DNA from: Ceratodon purpureus
Lineage: Eukaryota > Streptophyta > Bryopsida > Pseudoditrichales > Ditrichaceae
Reading direction: 5' to 3'
DNA length: 64,000 nucleotides
Assembly (NCBI GenBank): GCA_014871385.1
Contig: CM026427.1
Span: 3,914,988-3,978,987 of the forward strand
Part shown: positions 1,875 through 59,653 of the stretch, in pieces
Position numbering within the stretch: position 1 is the stretch's first letter
Layout of the letters: each line of letters begins with the position of its first letter
Position numbers and translations under genes: made by a program
The notes under the pieces: generated by a model
Database searches by the model: none
Seen by the model: only the letters and a program-made list of their open reading frames with translations
What the model was told of the DNA's origin: nothing

Positions 1875-4800
1875 ATGGAGGTACTCTCGCGTGCTAGTGT
1901 GGTTGCTGCAGCTGCCGGGGCACCAGCTGAGGCTGGAGTGTCTGGGAGTAAGAATGTGGCGGTGCGGGTGAATCCAGTGGGGCTGTTTCTGCGACCAGTG
2001 GGGCAGTTTGCTGCGTCGGTGCTGGCTGCGCCAGCTGCGCTGGCGTTGAATTACGATGATTATGTGAAGAAGGCGGTCGAGGGGGGGCCTTCTGTGTCGG
2101 AGTCGTCGGGGTTCGAGCTGCCGAGTATTGAGCTGCCGAGTTTTGAGTTGCCGTCTGTGGAGTTGCCGTCGGTGGACTTGGATGGGGCTAGTGATTTTCT
2201 GAGTGCGAATCCTGTGGCGCTTGTGCTGGGGCTGGCGGCGGTTGCGGTTCCGTTCGTTGCGTCCCGGGCGTTTGCTGGGCCTGGGGCGTCGTTTGGGTCT
2301 GTGTCGGCTGTGGAGGCTTTTGAGAAGTTGTCTAGTTCCGAGCAGAATGCAGTGCTTTTGGATATCCGGGCCGCTGAGGATATTAAGGCTGAGGGGAGCC
2401 CGAACCTGAAGTCGATTAAGAAGACGGCTGTGAGGGTGGCGTATGATGCTGAGGACGATTCGTTTGCGGATAAAGTGTTCGCGAAGTGCAAAAATGCTGA
2501 GAGCACCACTGTCTATGTTTTGGACAGGTGAGTGTGTAATTCTTTCTGGAGTACTGGGATTTTGGAGTTTGAATTGTTAGAGTAATCACATTTCAACTCG
2601 AGTTTTCAGAATCGCATTTTGCTTGTTGGTGTTTTAGGGAATGACGTCTCGTAGGGGTTTTGACGCCATTGCTTCTCAAAATAATCTTGGGAGGTGATAC
2701 GGAAGAATGTGTCGGAAAAATTGACAATGTGCCCAGCAGGAACTGAAACATTATGCTCCTCGCTGAATTCTAGTGGGACTGATTTGGGAAAGTGGCCATT
2801 ACTGTGATTCGATTGTGTGGAAAATTTCGCCATTGTGAAAACAGCTCTATTTCCTGTCGCCCAGATTTTAGTGTCGTACAATAATGCGATTCTATTCAAG
2901 TCTGTTCAGTATTGCTGTAATGTAATTCCTCCTCTCTGGGTCTTCATTTGCACAGGTTTGACGGAAGCTCCGCCAGTGTGGCGAAGCTCCTAGCTAACAG
3001 TGGCTTTAAGGGTGCGTACGCTATCAAGGGTGGTTCCGAGGGACCAAATGGATGGCAGGTAAAGCCTGCAGATCGAAGCACAATTACTCTTCCTTTGTTT
3101 GAGTGCAGCTCTGTGGCCAATCCGAAGATTTTCTTCTGCTTCTTAAGAAATTTCAGATGTTCGTTTCATTTGCTGACATTGCGAGATTCATTTTCGCAGG
3201 CGAAGGACCTACCATGGGCCATGCCCCCCAAGTCTTTCAACCTTAACATTGACAGTCTCAAGAACATTATTGCAGATGGTCAAGTTGGCGAGGTATTTTC
3301 TCATTTGAATTCTGCGTACATGCGTTAGAGGGGTTGTAGCAGATAGGTATGTGATTTCATGACTGTTACGCCTTGAAATTAGGAGTACTTCCCAATTTCT
3401 TATTAGTATCCTTGTGTTGGTGTCACAATTGCAGGACGCGTTTCCGACCACCCTTGGTGTAGCAGCAGCGGCTGTTGCTGGTGCTGTTGTTTTGTCTGAG
3501 GTCTCGACTCTAAGCTCGCTGAATTCGTTTATGTTTCTATCAGTGCGAATATTTTCAGCGAATGATGGAATAGGAAAGTTCTTCGCACTAAGTTGTTTTG
3601 TGTTTTTGTGTCGAGCAGGCTGAGACTACATTGCAGCTGTTGGGAACAGTTGCGCTAGCCCAATTATTTTTGAAGAAGTTCCTCTTCGCCGAGGCAAGTT
3701 CCTTCTTGTTGGTTGATATGAGGCTGGGATCTGTCTGTACATTATGTACTGATACAACATTATGGAGCCCTCTTCCTTCGTGTTTTGACGGTTGTTGGGA
3801 TGAACTTGCAGGATAGGAAGAAAACAGTGCAAGAGATTAAAACGTTTTTGGACACGAAGATTGCTCCCAAGGAGTTTATTGAAGAGCTGAAGGTCTCTTT
3901 GCATTTCTCTTCTCTCCTTTCCATAACTGGTTACTTATAATTTTAGACTCAGACACTAATTACAGAACTCTTATTCTACATTAGCAAGCAGCTTTCGGAA
4001 TCAATCTTACAGATGACGGTACAATGGATTTCTAATTAATCTGTGTCAGTAGATATGCTCTAATCTCAGATTCGGGTAGTTATGGAATGAGTGCCTCATG
4101 TGTGCAAATTCTGAAACCTACCTTCATGGTTTTAGTAATTCTATTTTCTGAATATAAATCCCACAGGAAGTCGGAAGAGCAATTCTCCCAAAAGATGGTG
4201 AGGTCAAAGCAGCTATTGCAAGCGGGGAAAAGGTGTTGGAGAAGGAATTAGGAGTAGACTCTGTGACACCAGAGGCATTGGCAGAGAAAGCGAAGGAAAA
4301 ACTCGGAGAAGAGGCAGAGAAGCTTGGAGTGGAAATCCCAGATGTTAAGGCAGGTGTAGAGGAAGTCAAATCAGCTGTTGAGTCAGCCAAGGAGAAGGTA
4401 GGAGAGGAGGCAGAGAAGCTTGGAGATGAAATTCCAGATATTAAAGCAGGTGCGAAGGAAGTTCAATCAGCTGTTGAGTCAGCCAAGGAGAAGGTAGGAG
4501 AAGAGGCAGAGAAGCTTGGAGAGGAAATCCCAGATATTAAAGCAGGTGCGGAGGAAGTTAAATCAGCTGTTGAGTCAGCCAAGGAGAAGGTTGGAGAAGA
4601 GGCAGAGAAGCTTGGAGAGGAAATTCCAGATATTAAAGCAGGTGCGGAGGAAGTTAAATCAGCTGTTGAGTCAGCCAAGGAGAAGGTTGGAGAAGAGGCA
4701 GAAAAGCTTGGAGAGGAAATCCCAGACGTCAAGGCAGGTGCAGAGGAAGTTAAATCAGCTGTTGAGTCAGCCACAGAGGAGGCAACAAAATCTAGCAACG

Positions 4801-5265
4801 GCTCCACAGCTCCTGAGCCAGTCGAAGAAGAGAAGCCTTCGGCACTCCCTGTTCTTCTCGAGCCTCCAAGTCTCCCATCCAAGACAGAGGCAGAGACCCC
4901 AGTTGCTGAGGCAGAGACTCCGGTTGTGGAGGAGCCAGAGCCCAGTACAACCGCTGCCGAGGTAAAGGAAGTCACCGAGGAAGCAACTCCGTTCTTCGAT
5001 TCCGACAAAGAAGTCAAGCCAGCCAGCCCCTTCGAGCCCGTAGCAGCAGCAGTCGGCTCTTCCAGTTCTACTGATTCCTCGAGGTTAGTAACATCTCTCT
5101 CTCAACGGCTTGCATTTCATTCATATGAGAAAGCTAAGAAACTCTGCCATCTTGGTACGTTTTGGAGCAAACGGTGTCAAACTGTCCATACTCTTGTGTT
5201 TCTCCTCAAAGGCTTACTACAACGAGTAGACATGTATACTAATGTGATACTTAACGTGCAGTTAA
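1875..5265 (+). CDS. TROL: TROL: thylakoid rhodanese-like protein (STR4-like)
   Basis: TROL tethers ferredoxin-NADP+ reductase (FNR) to thylakoid membranes in vascular plants. Exons: 1875-2527, 2956-3058, 3200-3292, 3435-3500, 3619-3693, 3812-3892, 4167-5083 and a terminal exon from 5262. Phases join cleanly and give about 663 aa. Visible in order: a plastid-type N-terminus, a pentapeptide run ELPS(I/F/V) x4 (about 81-100), a membrane segment (about 111-135), a rhodanese domain (about 140-285) with Asp at the usual catalytic Cys (VLDRFDG), then two hydrophobic segments ending KKFLFAEDRK. Exon 7 encodes five near-identical 32-residue helical repeats and an acidic Pro-rich tail. The 3693 donor is GC (GCAAGT). 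The C-terminus is uncertain. Splicing 5083 to 5262 gives an immediate stop; reading on ends at 5339; an acceptor at 5268 ends at 5368. The canonical FNR-recruitment motif is not recognisable in any version. Confidence 0.88.
4284..4770 (+). repeat. 96-bp in-frame repeat encoding five 32-aa helical units in TROL
   Basis: About five consecutive 96-base units each encode a Lys/Glu-rich segment with the core KVGEEAEKLGEEIPD followed by KAGAEEVKSAVESA. The DNA copies are almost identical, so expansion was recent or is being homogenised. The composition predicts amphipathic helix, like LEA or apolipoprotein-type repeats. It lies between the membrane part of TROL and the tail where FNR would dock. 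Confidence 0.9.
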
Positions 5266-5339
5266 AAGGATCGAATCTCCCGGAGAACTTCCCCCGAGAC
5301 TCTTTACTTGGAGTGCTCGGCCATTCTTGTGTACGGTGA

Positions 5340-26613: not shown

Positions 26614-29392
26614 TCAAAGATCAGGGATTGTAACAACGCCGAGCCTGTGCAGGAAGGTCTCACCTTCTCCGTGAAAACCGATAACCCTCGAACCTGTGTC
26701 ACTACTGAACTTTGTACTGCTTTCCCCACCAAAAGGACCATAAGTTCCGAGGTTTGTATGTATCGTTAGCGATGACACATTCATGAACCTTGGTCCGTCT
26801 AAAATTCCACCTTCAAACAGAGACCCGCTGATCTGTTTGATGTACTCAATATCAGGTTGCAACTCGATCTGCAGTTCCAAAACACAACCTACATTTAGAG
26901 GTCAAGCATCGATCACGGTGAACTTACACGAATGTACATTGACATAAAATCTAAGCTAGATAGCATAAATGAAAGGCAAAGTTGGCTTAATACCTTTGCA
27001 GTCTTATAACGTGGAAAGTCTGATCTTATATCATCCACTGTCTGTAAATATGATTCCCTCGTGAAGATTTTACCAAGGATCTCGTAGGTAACCTCGAATA
27101 AAGCTATCGGTCGACCTCCTTCTATGTATCCCAATTCGATGCTTCTTATGGATGTAGCCATGTCGTAAAACTCAGATCGTGACCCATAACCACAACTGTC
27201 TCCCCACGGTCCCTGCAACTGATCACATTTATGGTATCCACTGTCATTCTTTTAACTCATGTTTGAGGTTCTGATTCAAACAGATTACTCAGTCATGCCC
27301 CCTCACTGAATGTCTCAAATTTGCCCTTCAATCCTTTGAACTATCTTAAGCACTAAGTTAACTGACCAAAAGCAATATTTACATTTAAGCAAGACACCAC
27401 TGTGTAGTTAAACGGGATTGAACTAGAAGATAGATATTATGCTTTACCTTCACTCCCCCCAAAAATTTCTGGGGGTCGGCCCGACTTACAAATTGCTCTT
27501 GCAACTTCTGCTCATCACCTACAAGCCATTAAAAAAAAAAACAATTGTGTCCTTGTGAGTATAACGTTGAGTCAACACCGACTTGAAACTGGTCCATTTA
27601 CATAAAAACCACTCTAATCACGAGATGAGCAAATCAGACTTCTCACTACCAGAGAAGGCGTTGTTTCTCATTCCGTGAACCTCAGACTAATCATTGGCCG
27701 AAAAGGCTCTCATAGTGTTTGTCTCATATGTCACTTCTCACGTTCTCCGAAACTGTTCCGTGAATACCATGTTGCCAAAGCCTATTGTGAGGAACAAGAA
27801 AGTGCCCTAAGTGTTTCTATCACTTTGATCAAAACATGAGCACTACAATCTGATTAGGGATCTACCCACCGCCTTTACACTTTTATGAGTTCAAGCATAC
27901 CTTTGAGAAGTAAGCCTTTGATGTACCGCAGCTCCCTGCAGATTTCAGGAAACGGAGGTCGCTCATCGGGAATCTGGGACCAACATTTAGTAAGCAGGGT
28001 GGCCAACCGGAGAGGACAATTCGGCAACTCATACCGCAGGATTGGCCTCTCACCCGCCTTCGATCGCTTCTTCAACTCCCCCGGATTGCTAGGTTCAAAT
28101 GGATATTTCCCAGTGAGAATGTGGACGGACATCATGGCGAAGCTGTAGACGTCGGCTTTGAGCAGGTTCAGTCGAGCCTTCTCCGGGTCTTCTCTTGCTT
28201 TCATCACCTCCGGCGCCATGTACCTTGTGGTACCGGTGCCCATTGTGTTCGTTTCTGTTCTCTCGGCTGCTTTGGTCGAGCCAAAATCAGCAATCTTCAC
28301 TGAACTAATCCTTGAGGAGCCTTCATCAAAGTTAACAAGGACATTGCCCGGTTTAAGATCGCGATGAGCAACTCCCTTATCATGCATGTACCTCATGCCT
28401 TCCCCAATTTGGAGCAGCAACGAAACTGCTTCCACTACTGAAAGTCGTCCTTTCATTCGGCGTATAGCTCTGTCTAGGTCCATATCCAAAAGCTCCATCA
28501 CCAAATAGACTTCACGCTCCAAATCATTCTTGGAGAAGCAGAAGTGGCGCACTATGTGAGGATGGTTCCCCAATTTTCTTATGGCATCAATTTCCTTCTC
28601 AATTGAAGTCGATTGGATCTGCTCGAGCATTTTTACAACGCACTTGCCGTTCAGAAAGTTCGATTTTCTCACAACACCGAATGAACCTCTGCCAATTAAC
28701 TTGCCTCCAAGATCAAGGTCCTCTGGTTTCAAGAACACCAGATCACGGGAACAAGCCAGATGCTTTGCATGCAACTTTTCAGCCAAATCCCTTGCAACCT
28801 CTGGAATGAGCTCATTCAATTTTGCTGTACGTTCAAGGTAAACTAGTAGATCCATCTCATCCTCCTTCATCGCTTTGAGCAACGCCAATTCATGACCAGA
28901 GCATAATTGATAGTTGCAGGAAGTTGGTTCAAACTCAAAAGAGGTCATTTTTGAGCTTTCAAGTACGATACTTTGAAGAAGAGATGTGCACCACTCGATG
29001 TCATATATTAGATGTGAAAAGGTTTCTTTCAAATCACCTTGTTCCAAAGCTGCTCTTAACCACCCCGAAACGGTGATATCTGAGATGATGTGGCTCCTTC
29101 TCATCAACATGTCGGCATTGTGGAGAAATATATAAAGCTCCTGCAGCACAGGGATTGCACTGGCAAGGAAACGTACAGACTCCTCAATAGCAGCTAGAGT
29201 AGAGTCTGCCGCTTTCACTCTTTGGGCGAGAAAGTCACACTGGTGCCAGTTCACAAAATCATGACAACTACCGAGGGCACTACTCCAGAATTCATCTGAC
29301 CCCCGTGCTACTTCTCTGCAGCGTTTGATAAGTGCGTCCACGTTGGGTACAGGTTCTCGACCGGAAAAGAACGAAAAGATGTTCGGAAACAT
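26614..29392 (-). CDS. Protein kinase fused to a C-terminal jacalin-like lectin domain
   Basis: Four exons: 29392-27901, 27518-27448, 27218-26994 and 26868-26614, joining in phase to about 680 aa. The ATG at 29392 is the first in frame after a stop; an upstream exon is possible. Residues of about 1-225 are helical (leader FPNIFSFFSG, LIKRCREVARGSDEFW). Next comes a complete kinase: glycine loop IGRGSFGVV, VVK lysine, HRDLKPGN, DFG, APE, DVYSFAMM. The last two exons encode about 160 residues with jacalin hallmarks: start GPWGDSCGYGSRSEF, a TSIRSIEL strand, ALFEVTYEI, LTIHTNLGTYGPFGG and an IGFHGEGE end. Jacalin domains bind mannose or galactose glycans. The kinase looks active. A cytoplasmic glycan-sensing or defence kinase is inference. 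If the third-exon splice is skipped, the frame ends just after the kinase at 27875. Confidence 0.85.
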
Positions 29393-29850
29393 TGGAACCT
29401 CACTCTTTGCCAAATTGAATTGTGTAGTCAATGGAAGAAGGGAGAATAGCGCGGGGGAAGATCGCCAAACGTACTCTTAGAACGAGGCAGCCAATGATCG
29501 CCCCCACTGTCGGTAGGGTAACAGAGGCGGCCTGGCCGTGTTATTCGAGTAGGTATCGATCAGATTCGAATGTGATACCGACGCCGTCTTTCGACCCACG
29601 GAAGTCGAAAAGGAGCCCCGCGCGCAGACCCACAGAACCGTGCCGAACGGTTGTCTGCTCTGTAAGCTTCCACCAGCTCAAACGGCAACCCAAGTGTTCG
29701 ATCACAGCCGCACTGACAACAAAGAACAAAAGTAAGATGCTGCCCCAAGTGCCAAGCTTGTGCGCACAAGCCAGCTTGCAACCGATGACTGACACATGAG
29801 TTGCGTCCAAACAAACATCGTCTTAAAAGACTTACCTGAGCAGACGCATC
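29393..29850. other. Upstream region of the kinase-lectin gene
   Basis: Probable promoter and 5' leader of the leftward kinase-lectin gene. Overlapping short frames occur on both strands with no recognisable domain. Confidence 0.4.
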
Positions 29851-55447: not shown

Positions 55448-58400
55448 ATGGAGGAAGCTGCTTTTTACCTACAGCGCATTTCTGAGCGGATCGATGGTAT
55501 CCACATGTTAGCAGGAGATGGGAATCCATCTCGAAGTACTTCTCCCAATATAATGAAGGGTACACAATTTGGGTATCGGTCTCGAATTAGGACAGTTTCC
55601 TTTAACAAAGCGAAGTGCAGATACTTGGCGCAGGAGCTCGCAACCAAAATCCAATCAGATATCGCAACCTTATTAATTCCGGCGGCGAAGGGCGACACGG
55701 TTGGGCCAGTACTTCGGCACATTGCATTCGCGGTGGAGGCTGCAGAGCATCTCGTGGAAAGAAGTTGTAAGGAGAAGTGGTGGAACGAGATATTCTGGAC
55801 GGGAGATTCAACTGAAGCATTCTGTGACGTTCTCCAGAACTTGCAAGCAGCCATTGACATTGCGATTGGCAACGGGTCATGCACAGATCGAAGCATCTCA
55901 AGGTCTAGATCTGAGCTGGGACAGGAGTGGAGGTCGATGGTGCTTCAAGATCGTTCCTCTCTTGAGTGCAATGTCAGGCTGGTGATACAACATAGATTTG
56001 ACCCTGCATCAAGATATTTCTTGCACAACAAAGACCTGGAGATCGCGAATCATGTGCAAGCTAAGCTGGATGGAACTTACGCAGGGAATGTCATCCAGTT
56101 AGGGGTGACATTGGTATCCAAAGGAATTGCCAAAGGAATAACCTGCATCACATGGCATGGGAAAAAGTCTGTGTTGAAAAGATTCGAGAGTGATGAGCTT
56201 GCTAAGAGAGAAGCCGACATCATGAAGGATCTCATGCATCCACACATTGTGCTCCTATTTGGCTATGCTCTTCGTAGGCGGTACTTCGGGCAACCTTCAG
56301 TGCCGAATATTCTCCTCCAATATGCAGAAAGAGGAGATTTGCGTGAATACATCAAGAAGCTGGACAAGATCTGGAAGTGGATGTGATCGTGAATGTCATG
56401 TTGGAGATTGCCAAGGGAATGCATCACATTCACAGCAAAAAGATTGCACACCTCGATCTGAAGTCGATGAATGTCTTTGTAACGTCTCACGCAATCGCAG
56501 ACTTGCATGCTGCCAATTTCTTCCATGTCAAGATTGGGGACTTTGGCACGGCCATCAGGTGCAACGACGGGCCCATCCATGATTCCAGGGTTTATGGACA
56601 AGGCACGCATAGGTGGAGAGCACCGGAGTTGTTCAAGGAGGCACCTCGTTCAGACTTGGATTTGTACAAGGCTGATGTCTACAGTTACGCCATGGTGTGC
56701 GTGGAGCTTGTGACCAGACAACTTCCTTTGCAGGAGCGATTTCCCGATCAGCTCAACAGAAGCGAGTTGCACGCGTATATCTCAGAGTCCAGCAACAGGC
56801 CTTCGCTCCCAGAGACATACCCTCCGGAACTCTTGTCCATCATCCGTTGTTGCTGGGATGCTGAACCATCGAAGCGACCATCGTTTGAAGATATTGTCAA
56901 ATCTCTCGAAAGTTTGAAGGGCGAGATGCTTCTGAATGACAAGTTCTACTCCGCTCTCCCAAAAGTGACACAAAACGAGTAAGTTGATTATCATGTTCAT
57001 AAAACATGCTTTCATGCTTGGAAATGACCTCCTGTGCTTGTGTTGATCTAGACTGGTGTTATAGAGTAAAATTCATGAATTTTTGTGTTGGTGCATAATT
57101 ATATGATTGTGATCGAATGGTTATTGATCATTTAAACCTAAAATACATATATGTATATATACACATTCACTTATACGATCATAGATTGTTCTTTTGTGAT
57201 TGCGCAGAAGGGAACCAGAGCTTGCTGCTTGCATTACACCTATATTTAGACCTGGACCAGTGCCTGATTATAAGTTTGGTGGACCACCGCGTGATTATAT
57301 TTTTGCTCAGGGATTTGGTGGTGGAAGTGCATACGACCTCCGTGCTAATTCTGGTCAGGAACTAAGTGGTGGAAGGGTAGATGAACTTGATGAAATGGTG
57401 AAGAAAGCCACCATGTCTCCTATTTTTATGATACAGACTATCCACCTACCTTGTAGTGCTGACGGTTGGGAGATGCTGATTGAACTTGGAGAAGATGTGA
57501 GACACAAGATCGATGACTTTGTCCATGGAGGGGCAACAATGGGTCAGCAGATGTACACCTCACGAGCATCCCTCCTCCAACCCATCCTTAGCGAGTTCCA
57601 AGAGCAACTCCACCTTCTTTCTGGCCATGCCCACGATTATGACACCACAAGAAATGGATTATTCAATGAAGTGTTCCACGTTTTGAAGAGGGTGGAGTTC
57701 TTATTGGGAAGTTGCTCATGGCCTGCCATTGAATTCCATGGTGGGCCAACAGCCACCGACGAAGCTTTTCTGTCAATGTGGAAAAATCTAGACCATTGCA
57801 TGCAGATGATGAGGTATTCTTCAACGCTCCTACGGGCCACTGACGATTTATTTGAGGAAATCTCAAAGTTTCGATCGGAGAACCCAAACGAGGATTCTTG
57901 GAGCCGAGCATGCGAGTCCGACCGGCAGATGTTGCTTCGGTTCCTTTATTCATGTGTGATGATGTACAGAATTGACCAGCATCATCACTGGTATATGGGG
58001 AGCATTGCAGTAATCTCAAAAGACTCGGCGATGTATAGTGAGGGCCCAGCTGCTTTTAATATTCCATTGCAATTCGTCTGGCGGAGCGAAAATATACTGT
58101 GGGATGAAGGTCCCAATGGTCTGATCATGGGGCCTATGCCTTTCCTAGGTCAAGCAAACTATTTTTCCATCGTCGAAAAGAAGGAGGTTTACCACCAACT
58201 ACCGGTATATTGGGCCGTGAAAGTGTATGCACGCGAGAGTAGAAAGCTGGCTTACGATTTCATCAAACTAGCAAGCCTTCAACATCCACATGTGGTGCAA
58301 ATGTTCGGCGCATGGGAAGATGGGGACTCTGGTTATGTGGCCATGAAGATGATGCAGACGAATGTGATGCAGTTCTTGAGCCAGAAACAGGATAACACGT

Positions 58401-58984
58401 TGAGCGCCGTGTTGTTGCTCACCATCCTTGTCCAGATCGCTGAAGGGATGAGCTACATGCACAGCCACCATGTCCGCCATCACAACCTCAAGTGCTCGAA
58501 CGTGCTTTTGGGCGGATTCTATCAGAACTTGGAGATTGTTCACGTTGAGGTTTCAGATTACTGGTTCGATCGCGGGCAAGTGAGGGAAGAGGACCGGGAC
58601 TTGGAATCGAGCAGCTCATGTACGGTTCCCATCAAGGACACAGTGCAGTTTGGTGAAGGTGAAGAAACCGATGAGTATGCGTTTGATGTTTACCAATTTG
58701 CAATGCTGTGCTCGGAGATCTTTTCTATCCGTGGCACGCGAGAAGGATCAGAAGCCCCATCGCAAGCCAGTGGCTCTGATTCTGGTGAGGTTGATGATGA
58801 AGCAGTTACGGTCTCATTCCCAGAGAAGTGCCCGCGAGAACTTGCCATGTACTTGCAGAAGTGTGGCTCGAAGGATCCGAAACAGAGACCCAGGTTTGCT
58901 GAGATCTGCACTGTGCTTCGTAACCACAGAGCGTACATGATTTTGAGTGGAGATCAAGGGACTGGAAGCGCAGCAAGAGAGTAA
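55448..58984 (+). CDS. Tandem kinase-pseudokinase protein (one apparent frameshift)
   Basis: Exon 1 is 55448-56978, intron 56979-57207 (GTAAGT...CAG), exon 2 is 57208-58984. The splice phase is exact (GA|A), giving about 1100 aa. A helical N-terminal domain (about 1-210) precedes kinase 1, which has a degenerate glycine loop (SKGIAKGIT), lysine VLKRF, a catalytic loop HLDLKSMN (Arg to Leu), DFG, APE and DVYSYAM. Then come a Pro-rich linker (FRPGPVPDYKFGGPPRDY), a second helical domain and kinase 2. In kinase 2, AVKVYA is kept, but the catalytic loop is HHNLKCSN (Asp to Asn), DFG is replaced by SDYWF, and APE is lost, so it is a pseudokinase. Kinase 1 needs a one-base shift between 56347 and 56383; this may be an assembly error or real decay. 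Unspliced RNA would stop right after kinase 1. Tandem kinase-pseudokinases are known plant immune receptors; that role here is inference. Confidence 0.7.
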
Positions 58985-59122: not shown

Positions 59123-59653
59123 ATGGGGTTGTTGGGATTTCACACTATGAAAATCAAGGAAGAGGAGCTTCTGGCTGGGGATCACATCTATACCGACCGG
59201 AACCAGCACACTTATTACCATCACGGCATCTTCATTGGCGACGACAGAGTGATCCATTTTACCAAAGTTTCAAGTGACTATCCCGCAGTTCCGGAGGAGA
59301 AGTGTGATCATCATTCTAACACCACAAGAGATACCGAAAGTGGAGTTCGTATGTCCTGTGTACTTAAGTGCTTTTTGCAACCCGGGCACTCACTCTACCG
59401 TTTCGTATACGATGAAGGATTATTGGCAATAGTAAGATCGACTCGGAGTGCAAGGCATTGTACTAGGGTAGAGTCGGTTTTGAGGCGCGCCAATGAGGAG
59501 CTCGAGGAGGACACCTTTGGGGGGTCTTCACTAATTTTGAAGAATTGCGAGACGTTTGCATACTTCTGCAAAACTGGCGTTAAATTCCACCTGAGCAAAC
59601 AGGTGCTGCGCTCATTAGGATTTCTAGTTCTTGCGGCCGCGATTATGGTTTAG
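59123..59653 (+). CDS. LRAT-domain (NlpC/P60-like) protein
   Basis: Intronless, 176 aa, from ATG 59123 (MGLLGFHTMKIKEEELLAGD). The start matches remembered plant LRAT-domain proteins of the LES1 type, which begin MGLL...KPGDHIY. The catalytic-type histidine lies in YYHHGIFIGDDRVIHF and the nucleophile cysteine in the NC motif KNCETFAYFCKTG. The last 20 or so residues are hydrophobic (SLGFLVLAAAIMV), a possible membrane tail. LRAT-fold enzymes are acyltransferases or thiol hydrolases; plant members are poorly characterised. It lies 138 bases after the tandem-kinase stop in the same orientation. The frame is open back to about 59060, so an upstream exon or read-through fusion is possible but weakly supported. 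Confidence 0.82.
   Translation: MGLLGFHTMKIKEEELLAGDHIYTDRNQHTYYHHGIFIGDDRVIHFTKVSSDYPAVPEEKCDHHSNTTRDTESGVRMSCVLKCFLQPGHSLYRFVYDEGLLAIVRSTRSARHCTRVESVLRRANEELEEDTFGGSSLILKNCETFAYFCKTGVKFHLSKQVLRSLGFLVLAAAIMV

Follow-up and report, generated by a model that had tools for sequence, protein, structure and literature searches.

A frame-broken, fast-evolving MLKL-type kinase locus in the moss Ceratodon purpureus points to unbroken HeLo-pseudokinase-kinase genes in the same genome

The locus at positions 55448-58984 of the window, i.e., of the whole 64,000-nucleotide stretch of Ceratodon purpureus DNA analyzed here (contig CM026427.1, positions 3,914,988 to 3,978,987), is a broken, fast-evolving relative, and the family of HeLo-type kinase genes to which it points is the object of interest. 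At about even chances, we read the locus itself as a two-unit member of MLKL type, organized as one transcription unit, with its frame broken in the first kinase, and thus as a decaying gene or a non-functional allele. This reading is suggested by a break between coding-like frames for which no plausible intron was found, by the long branches of both kinases in the tree and by the lack of a close paralog of either N-terminus.

Results

Three coding-like frames follow each other in the region (A, B and C, the last being open over 57200-58984; Table 1). The first-pass annotation had treated 55448-58984 as readable in one continuous frame once a single intron was removed, which did not hold: the frame of the ATG at 55448 ends at a TGA (56384-56386) within kinase 1, and the C-lobe of this kinase sits in another frame. 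The coding signal switches frame there, too. In a codon-usage scan with sliding windows of 120 nt, trained on 43 family genes, the best frame was A up to about 56379, B up to about 56979, none up to about 57200 and C up to about 58959; five of the 120-nt scan windows within coding-like stretches scored higher in another frame, one of them (57220-57339) just past the putative acceptor. Rescue of the A/B break by an intron was attempted with 21 bridging GT-AG pairs, none of which was credible: the hinge and the catalytic loop are both spared by just one of them, which measures 35 nt. Plant introns usually do not fall to such a size, and the 35-nt candidate was rejected for its length, which leaves the break as a lesion or a sequence error. 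Bridging of the frame change in vivo, be it by programmed frameshifting or by a very short intron of this kind, is highly improbable despite the coding-like character of either frame as far as the break and the one pair that spares hinge and catalytic loop, since no obvious slippery heptamer was seen by eye, 35 nt is under the usual plant intron sizes and the open family members require no such event.

Table 1. Features of the locus and of a reference gene in the window (positions are those of the window).
Feature	Position	Strand	Remarks
Frame A	55448..56386	+	ATG to TGA, 312 aa; N-terminal domain of MLKL/HeLo type (about 55589-56068), then the first part of the kinase 1 N-lobe
Frame A/B overlap	56347..56386	+	Site of the reading-frame break
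Frame B	56347..56982	+	Remainder of kinase 1, in a frame other than that of A; terminates at TAA or, if spliced, at donor 56979
Putative intron	56979..57207	+	229 nt, GTAAGT...CAG, in phase by coordinates
Frame C, second unit	57208..58984	+	Diverged N-terminal region (weak HeLo match at about 57575-57952) and pseudokinase (about 58205-58951)
HHNLKCSN	58478..58501	+	Asn replacing the catalytic Asp; motif table
SDYWF	58553..58567	+	At the DFG position; Asp of DFG kept, FG lost
Unbroken single-frame family member	27911..29425	-	HRDLK, DFG, APE; Pfam Pkinase 3.3e-42; reference for the broken locus

The per-codon scores of frames A, B and C were 0.049-0.060 as compared to 0.018-0.101 across the 43 family genes. 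Apart from the single break, all three frames are thus scored like family genes, and the catalytic motifs of kinase 1 are kept, so that a mistake in the assembly or a break of very recent date fits equally. That the break indeed arose in the assembly and that the gene is an intact fusion of the type HeLo-kinase-(HeLo)-pseudokinase appears rather doubtful to us. The codon scores within the family range, the K, D, DFG and APE kept in kinase 1 with only a single lesion found, and the 36 open single genes of 500-660 aa among the fetched loci, by which the family as such is maintained, would all agree with it; however, no homopolymer is present at the break (by eye), the long branches suggest weak constraint, and a search of the genome (362,488,568 bases, 151 contigs) found no second copy of the locus for comparison. 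Close paralogs of the N-termini of the two units were likewise not found in the genome, the E value of the best other match being 0.00115 in the case of frame A and 6.17 in that of frame C; counts from these searches are lower bounds. Our preferred reading remains that of a decaying gene, and gene models at 55448-58984 need checking for the frame break.

The presence of two kinase-type regions, as annotated, was confirmed by Pfam, with PK_Tyr_Ser-Thr matching the C-lobe of kinase 1 (about 56365-56934, frame B) at E 5.3e-29 and kinase 2 (frame C) at E 8.1e-26. Kinase 1 keeps the lysine (SVLKRF), HLDLKSMN (56449-56472), DFG and APE, its glycine loop being non-canonical by eye. Kinase 2 had been annotated as a pseudokinase, and its motifs agree: the lysine is kept (AVK, 58220-58222), HHNLKCSN and SDYWF replace the catalytic-loop and DFG motifs (Table 1), and APE is absent. 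By the motif table, the locus therefore combines one kinase with catalytic residues in unit 1 with one pseudokinase in unit 2. All matches in NCBIfam were to generic kinase models and fell far short of the respective cut-offs, and no Pfam match to NB-ARC or LRR was obtained in frames A, B and C, NB-ARC being absent from the next downstream gene as well. Two other genes of the window were observed in passing: directly downstream of the pseudokinase lies an LRAT-domain gene (59123-59650, + strand; Pfam LRAT 4.1e-17), and at 4158-5339 (+ strand) a repetitive helical protein with recurring EEAEKLGEEIPDIKAGAEEVKSAVESAKEKVG-like units is encoded, for which Pfam returned generic helical matches only.

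Between the two units, a canonical in-phase intron had been proposed. Its GTAAGT and CAG signals are present, and by coordinates its removal would put frame B (56347-56978) in phase with frame C (57208-58984), whereas the fusion by splicing is a prediction from the sequence. The G+C content of the interval is 31% as compared to 47-49% in the three flanking frames; AT-richness is common in much of the remaining window and hence not unique to this interval. Frame C has its first in-frame ATG at 57395, which leaves 62 codons between the acceptor and this ATG. These codons score 0.049 per codon, which equals the remainder of frame C; the score is matched or exceeded by 47 of 415 stop-free non-coding stretches of the same length, and of 413 coding pieces held out from training, 189 do not score higher. 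Hence, coding between the acceptor at 57207 and the ATG at 57395 is modestly favored, and with it splicing from frame B, without this amounting to proof. Taken together, the splice signals and the codon score suggest that both units most likely form one transcription unit via this intron. The alternative of two neighboring genes, i.e., a broken HeLo-kinase gene ending at the TAA at 56980-56982 and a separate pseudokinase gene starting from the ATG at 57395, is unlikely in our view: it would have to fit a 3' UTR, a promoter and a 5' UTR into only 412 nt, and it meets coding-like codon use, albeit modest, upstream of that ATG and an AT-rich stretch with an in-phase donor and acceptor. Nevertheless, the fetched family genes are open in a single frame, the first unit stops soon past its kinase as single genes do, the overlap of the GTAAGT with the TAA stop may be accidental, frame C has its first ATG where a HeLo-type gene might begin, and the scan window at 57220-57339 is better in another frame, all of which would suit two genes.

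Helical N-terminal domains had been annotated for the locus; this was confirmed for unit 1, whereas the N-terminus of unit 2 turned out to be only weakly similar. An HMM was built from the N-terminal 215 residues of 34 family genes that are non-redundant. Searched at a database size of 1000, it matched frame A (E 1.2e-12) as well as, at E 0.025-0.09, the N-terminus of frame C, with none of 20 shuffles of frame C reported at E 10. By hhalign, the N-terminal region of frame C matched the family at E 0.0016 with a probability of 16%, and the whole-length profile comparison of frame C gave E 6.3e-33 over residues 147-584, a span which includes the kinase. These values weakly suggest a HeLo nature of the second-unit N-terminus. 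Pfam MLKL_N matched frame A at E 0.014, which is under its cut-off. Across the family, MLKL_N was found at 0.01 in 4 of 37 members (best 1.9e-10) and, when 28 N-termini were searched at 0.1, in six (best 0.0016), next to DUF7792 (five), RPW8 (four), DUF1221 (three) and a further 21 Pfam families with one match each; the scatter indicates that single family members mostly have a weak MLKL_N match or none. A full-length profile of 37 of the 49 fetched open frames above 300 aa (the 12 omitted were near-copies, shorter frames and a 1491-aa frame) matched, among 177,635 PDB sequences, first 6lba (4.4e-93, profile positions 26-498) and then 6ka4 (2.7e-86, 24-527), both alignments covering both domains. 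The entries are labeled 'Protein kinase family protein' and 'F22L4.1 protein', respectively, and we take them to be Arabidopsis MLKL3 and MLKL2. The same two entries ranked first (6.1e-5) and second (2.4e-4) when a profile of the N-termini only (27 fetched genes and frame A) was searched against PDB, with an NxxQC motif in common; the third was the designed protein 9ugr ('Syn-F4-Link', 0.0013), presumably a four-helix design, so that helical make-up may add to the N-terminal match to 6lba and 6ka4. From these comparisons we take unit 1 to belong to the MLKL-type HeLo-kinase family.

The genome was searched with the query P0002, which gave 150 scored matches among 695 candidates, not necessarily all of the HeLo-kinase family; in 18 of the 150 match rows a stop falls within the matched stretch. 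The catalytic Asp is kept in 43 of the 44 single-kinase rows of the genome, near-copies and fragments included. NLR-associated proteins, a class counted to include MLKL, are reported in all tested species including mosses in the excerpted text of PMC11218826, and the plant MLKL family has been described as conserved across seed plants (PMC9950082). Several further features of the family were observed. The HeLo-kinase gene L060 (G000:C9:7301071-7304763) has a C-terminal part which is Sel1-repeat-like by eye, and Pfam Sel1 matched one of 37 family members (not named in the output). Eleven family matches within about 0.54 Mb (G000:C5:15.09-15.63 Mb) probably form a tandem array. Degenerate kinase copies are paired about 9 kb apart at G000:C6:6896-16529, C32:33428-43071 and C7:18769942-18779351; with one TAG and one TAA per row, they are probably duplicated pseudogenes.

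With L050 as the query, 15 open frames containing at least two kinase regions were found in the genome, two of these frames having a match row with an internal stop. Nine of the 15 were read, and seven of these (L033, L043, L045, L050, L051, L058, and L063) show the order HeLo-type N-terminus, pseudokinase, kinase. In the first domains (d1), the catalytic Asp is replaced by Glu in all seven (HGELK in six, HEELK in one), and all seven second domains (d2) retain Asp and DFG, the second kinase of L063 being shortened. The N-terminal HMM was applied to six of the seven genes and matched all of them (8.2e-14 to 8.7e-8); for L063, which was outside this test, L050 matches from residue 13 to 490. The annotation had suggested an independent bryophyte version of the kinase-pseudokinase fusion. 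As a working fusion at the window locus this was not supported, and it is these unbroken single-frame tandem genes elsewhere in the genome that support it better. The C-terminal stretch of L063 (G000:C10:16175200-16179200) is Myb/trihelix-like by eye and possibly an integrated domain. The other two frames that were read differ in content: L034 (G000:C13, about 15171548-15175147, - strand) is an open frame of 1491 aa, whose fetched part holds three kinase regions and the beginning of a fourth; L034 is partly a near-copy of L033, about 35 kb apart, and carries further kinases. L062 (G000:C3:6699000-6702500) has two active-looking kinases in one open frame, with HRDLK and DFG in both and no obvious HeLo domain by eye.

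A kinase tree of 58 rows was calculated, from which seven rows had been omitted as near-copies or fragments, L063_d2 among them, one short L034 piece having been dropped earlier. All first domains group in a single clade (100/100, 7 rows), a second clade consists of both L062 domains and the d2 domains of six genes (99/97, 8 rows), and the d1 clade is joined to the d2 clade (99/98). This topology indicates one internal duplication, after which catalysis was lost in domain 1. Both window kinases are excluded from this tandem-kinase clade (starred in the tree), and their branches are long (1.69 and 3.05 as compared to a median of 0.34), for which reason their position is unsure; the winK1 row was used without its hinge columns. 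In AU tests, neither winK1 with the d2 clade (p-AU 0.118) nor winK1 and winK2 as a pair (p-AU 0.287) was rejected. The dN/dS ratios were determined for four pairs with shared genes (L051/L058, L051/L045, L033/L043, and L033/L050) and amounted to 0.15-0.22 in the pseudokinase d1, with values of 0.18-0.45 in the second kinase and of 0.25-0.46 in the N-terminus; for the linker, 0.22-0.73 was obtained in three pairs, the ratio not being computable in one. The d1 ratio was the lowest of the three domains in all four overlapping pairs, in L033/L050 barely so (0.179 vs. 0.180), and the ratios of the two L033 pairs are rough since their dS is 0.85 or more (up to 1.9). The pseudokinase d1 therefore appears to be kept by selection.

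Discussion

The fast-diverging window locus would thus consist of a HeLo domain and kinase, followed by a diverged N-terminal region and a pseudokinase. As sequenced, translation from the ATG at 55448 would cover the HeLo domain and a portion of the N-lobe and then stop, and a tandem function is unlikely because no straight-read product holds the whole of kinase 1. The intact form would most likely have worked like plant MLKLs and tandem kinases, with the pseudokinase sensing or regulating, the kinase relaying the signal and the HeLo bundle acting at membranes; an immune role of the locus and of the tandem family is what we infer.

Plant MLKLs (6lba, 6ka4 and wheat Pm13) share with the locus an N-terminal domain of HeLo/DUF1221 type that precedes a kinase domain, whereas the locus has a second unit and the frame break. 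The C-terminal kinase-type domain of plant MLKLs is present in both units, with that of unit 1 lying partly in another frame. As to a pseudokinase such as that of Arabidopsis MLKL, the two units differ: unit 2 has pseudokinase motifs (HHN, DYW, no APE), and in unit 1 the Lys, Asp, DFG and APE are all present, the catalytic residues being retained in Pm13, too. Retention of the catalytic Asp in the single-kinase rows of the genome is like Pm13 and unlike AtMLKLs, as far as these are described in the excerpted text of PMC10951266, where the HeLo domain of AtMLKLs is also reported to be able to trigger cell death in plants.

In cereals, tandem kinase proteins (TKPs) act in disease resistance, and their layout resembles that of the unbroken HeLo-pseudokinase-kinase genes. 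The TKPs Yr15/WTK1, Sr62, and RPG1 are comparable to the window locus in that kinase and pseudokinase are combined in one predicted product, the order being kinase-pseudokinase in Sr62 and Yr15 and pseudokinase-kinase in RPG1 (PMC8956640). According to the model presented there, the pseudokinase is proposed to be an effector decoy and the kinase the partner that starts signaling (PMC8956640). Sr62 and WTK3 are reported to depend on an NLR, and cell death by some TKPs to require a helper NLR (PMC12830362). Most clades of the TKP set of 2018 correspond to RLK families (PMC6170490); by contrast, the family described here is of MLKL type with a HeLo domain, and the frame of the window locus is broken. 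The HeLo-pseudokinase-kinase genes are closer to the locus, coming from the same genome and wider family and having a HeLo-type N-terminus, a pseudokinase and an active-looking kinase, but they differ from it by a single open frame, one HeLo domain, the pseudokinase in first position and, in the tree, a clade without the window kinases. Moss Pkn-NLRs are kinase-containing receptor genes, too, and expanded in mosses (PMC10952240); frames A, B and C differ from them in lacking an NB-ARC or LRR match.

A moss tandem kinase as such is not new, since one Physcomitrella patens protein is among the 89 selected TKPs of Klymiuk et al. (2018), who, in the excerpted text, reported additional conserved domains for none of their 92 (PMC6170490). 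A review citing Reveguk et al. (2025) describes non-kinase integrated domains as common in TKPs (PMC12835825). For the HeLo-pseudokinase-kinase layout, no description was found in the excerpted literature searched; the TKP atlas of Reveguk et al. (2025) may list it.

Tentatively, and as something possible rather than probable, we propose that mosses built tandem kinase receptors from MLKL: the HeLo-pseudokinase-kinase family would go back to one old internal duplication, with the pseudokinase now being its most constrained part, and the window locus would stand for a second attempt, made separately and broken by now. By analogy with the systems compared above, a HeLo-pseudokinase-kinase protein would unite sensor, relay and executioner, perhaps without the helper NLR of some cereal TKPs. 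If this is true, the tandem design had its origin in another kinase family and could bring along a cell-death module of its own; the HeLo-tandem-kinase family could be tested in a transformable moss.
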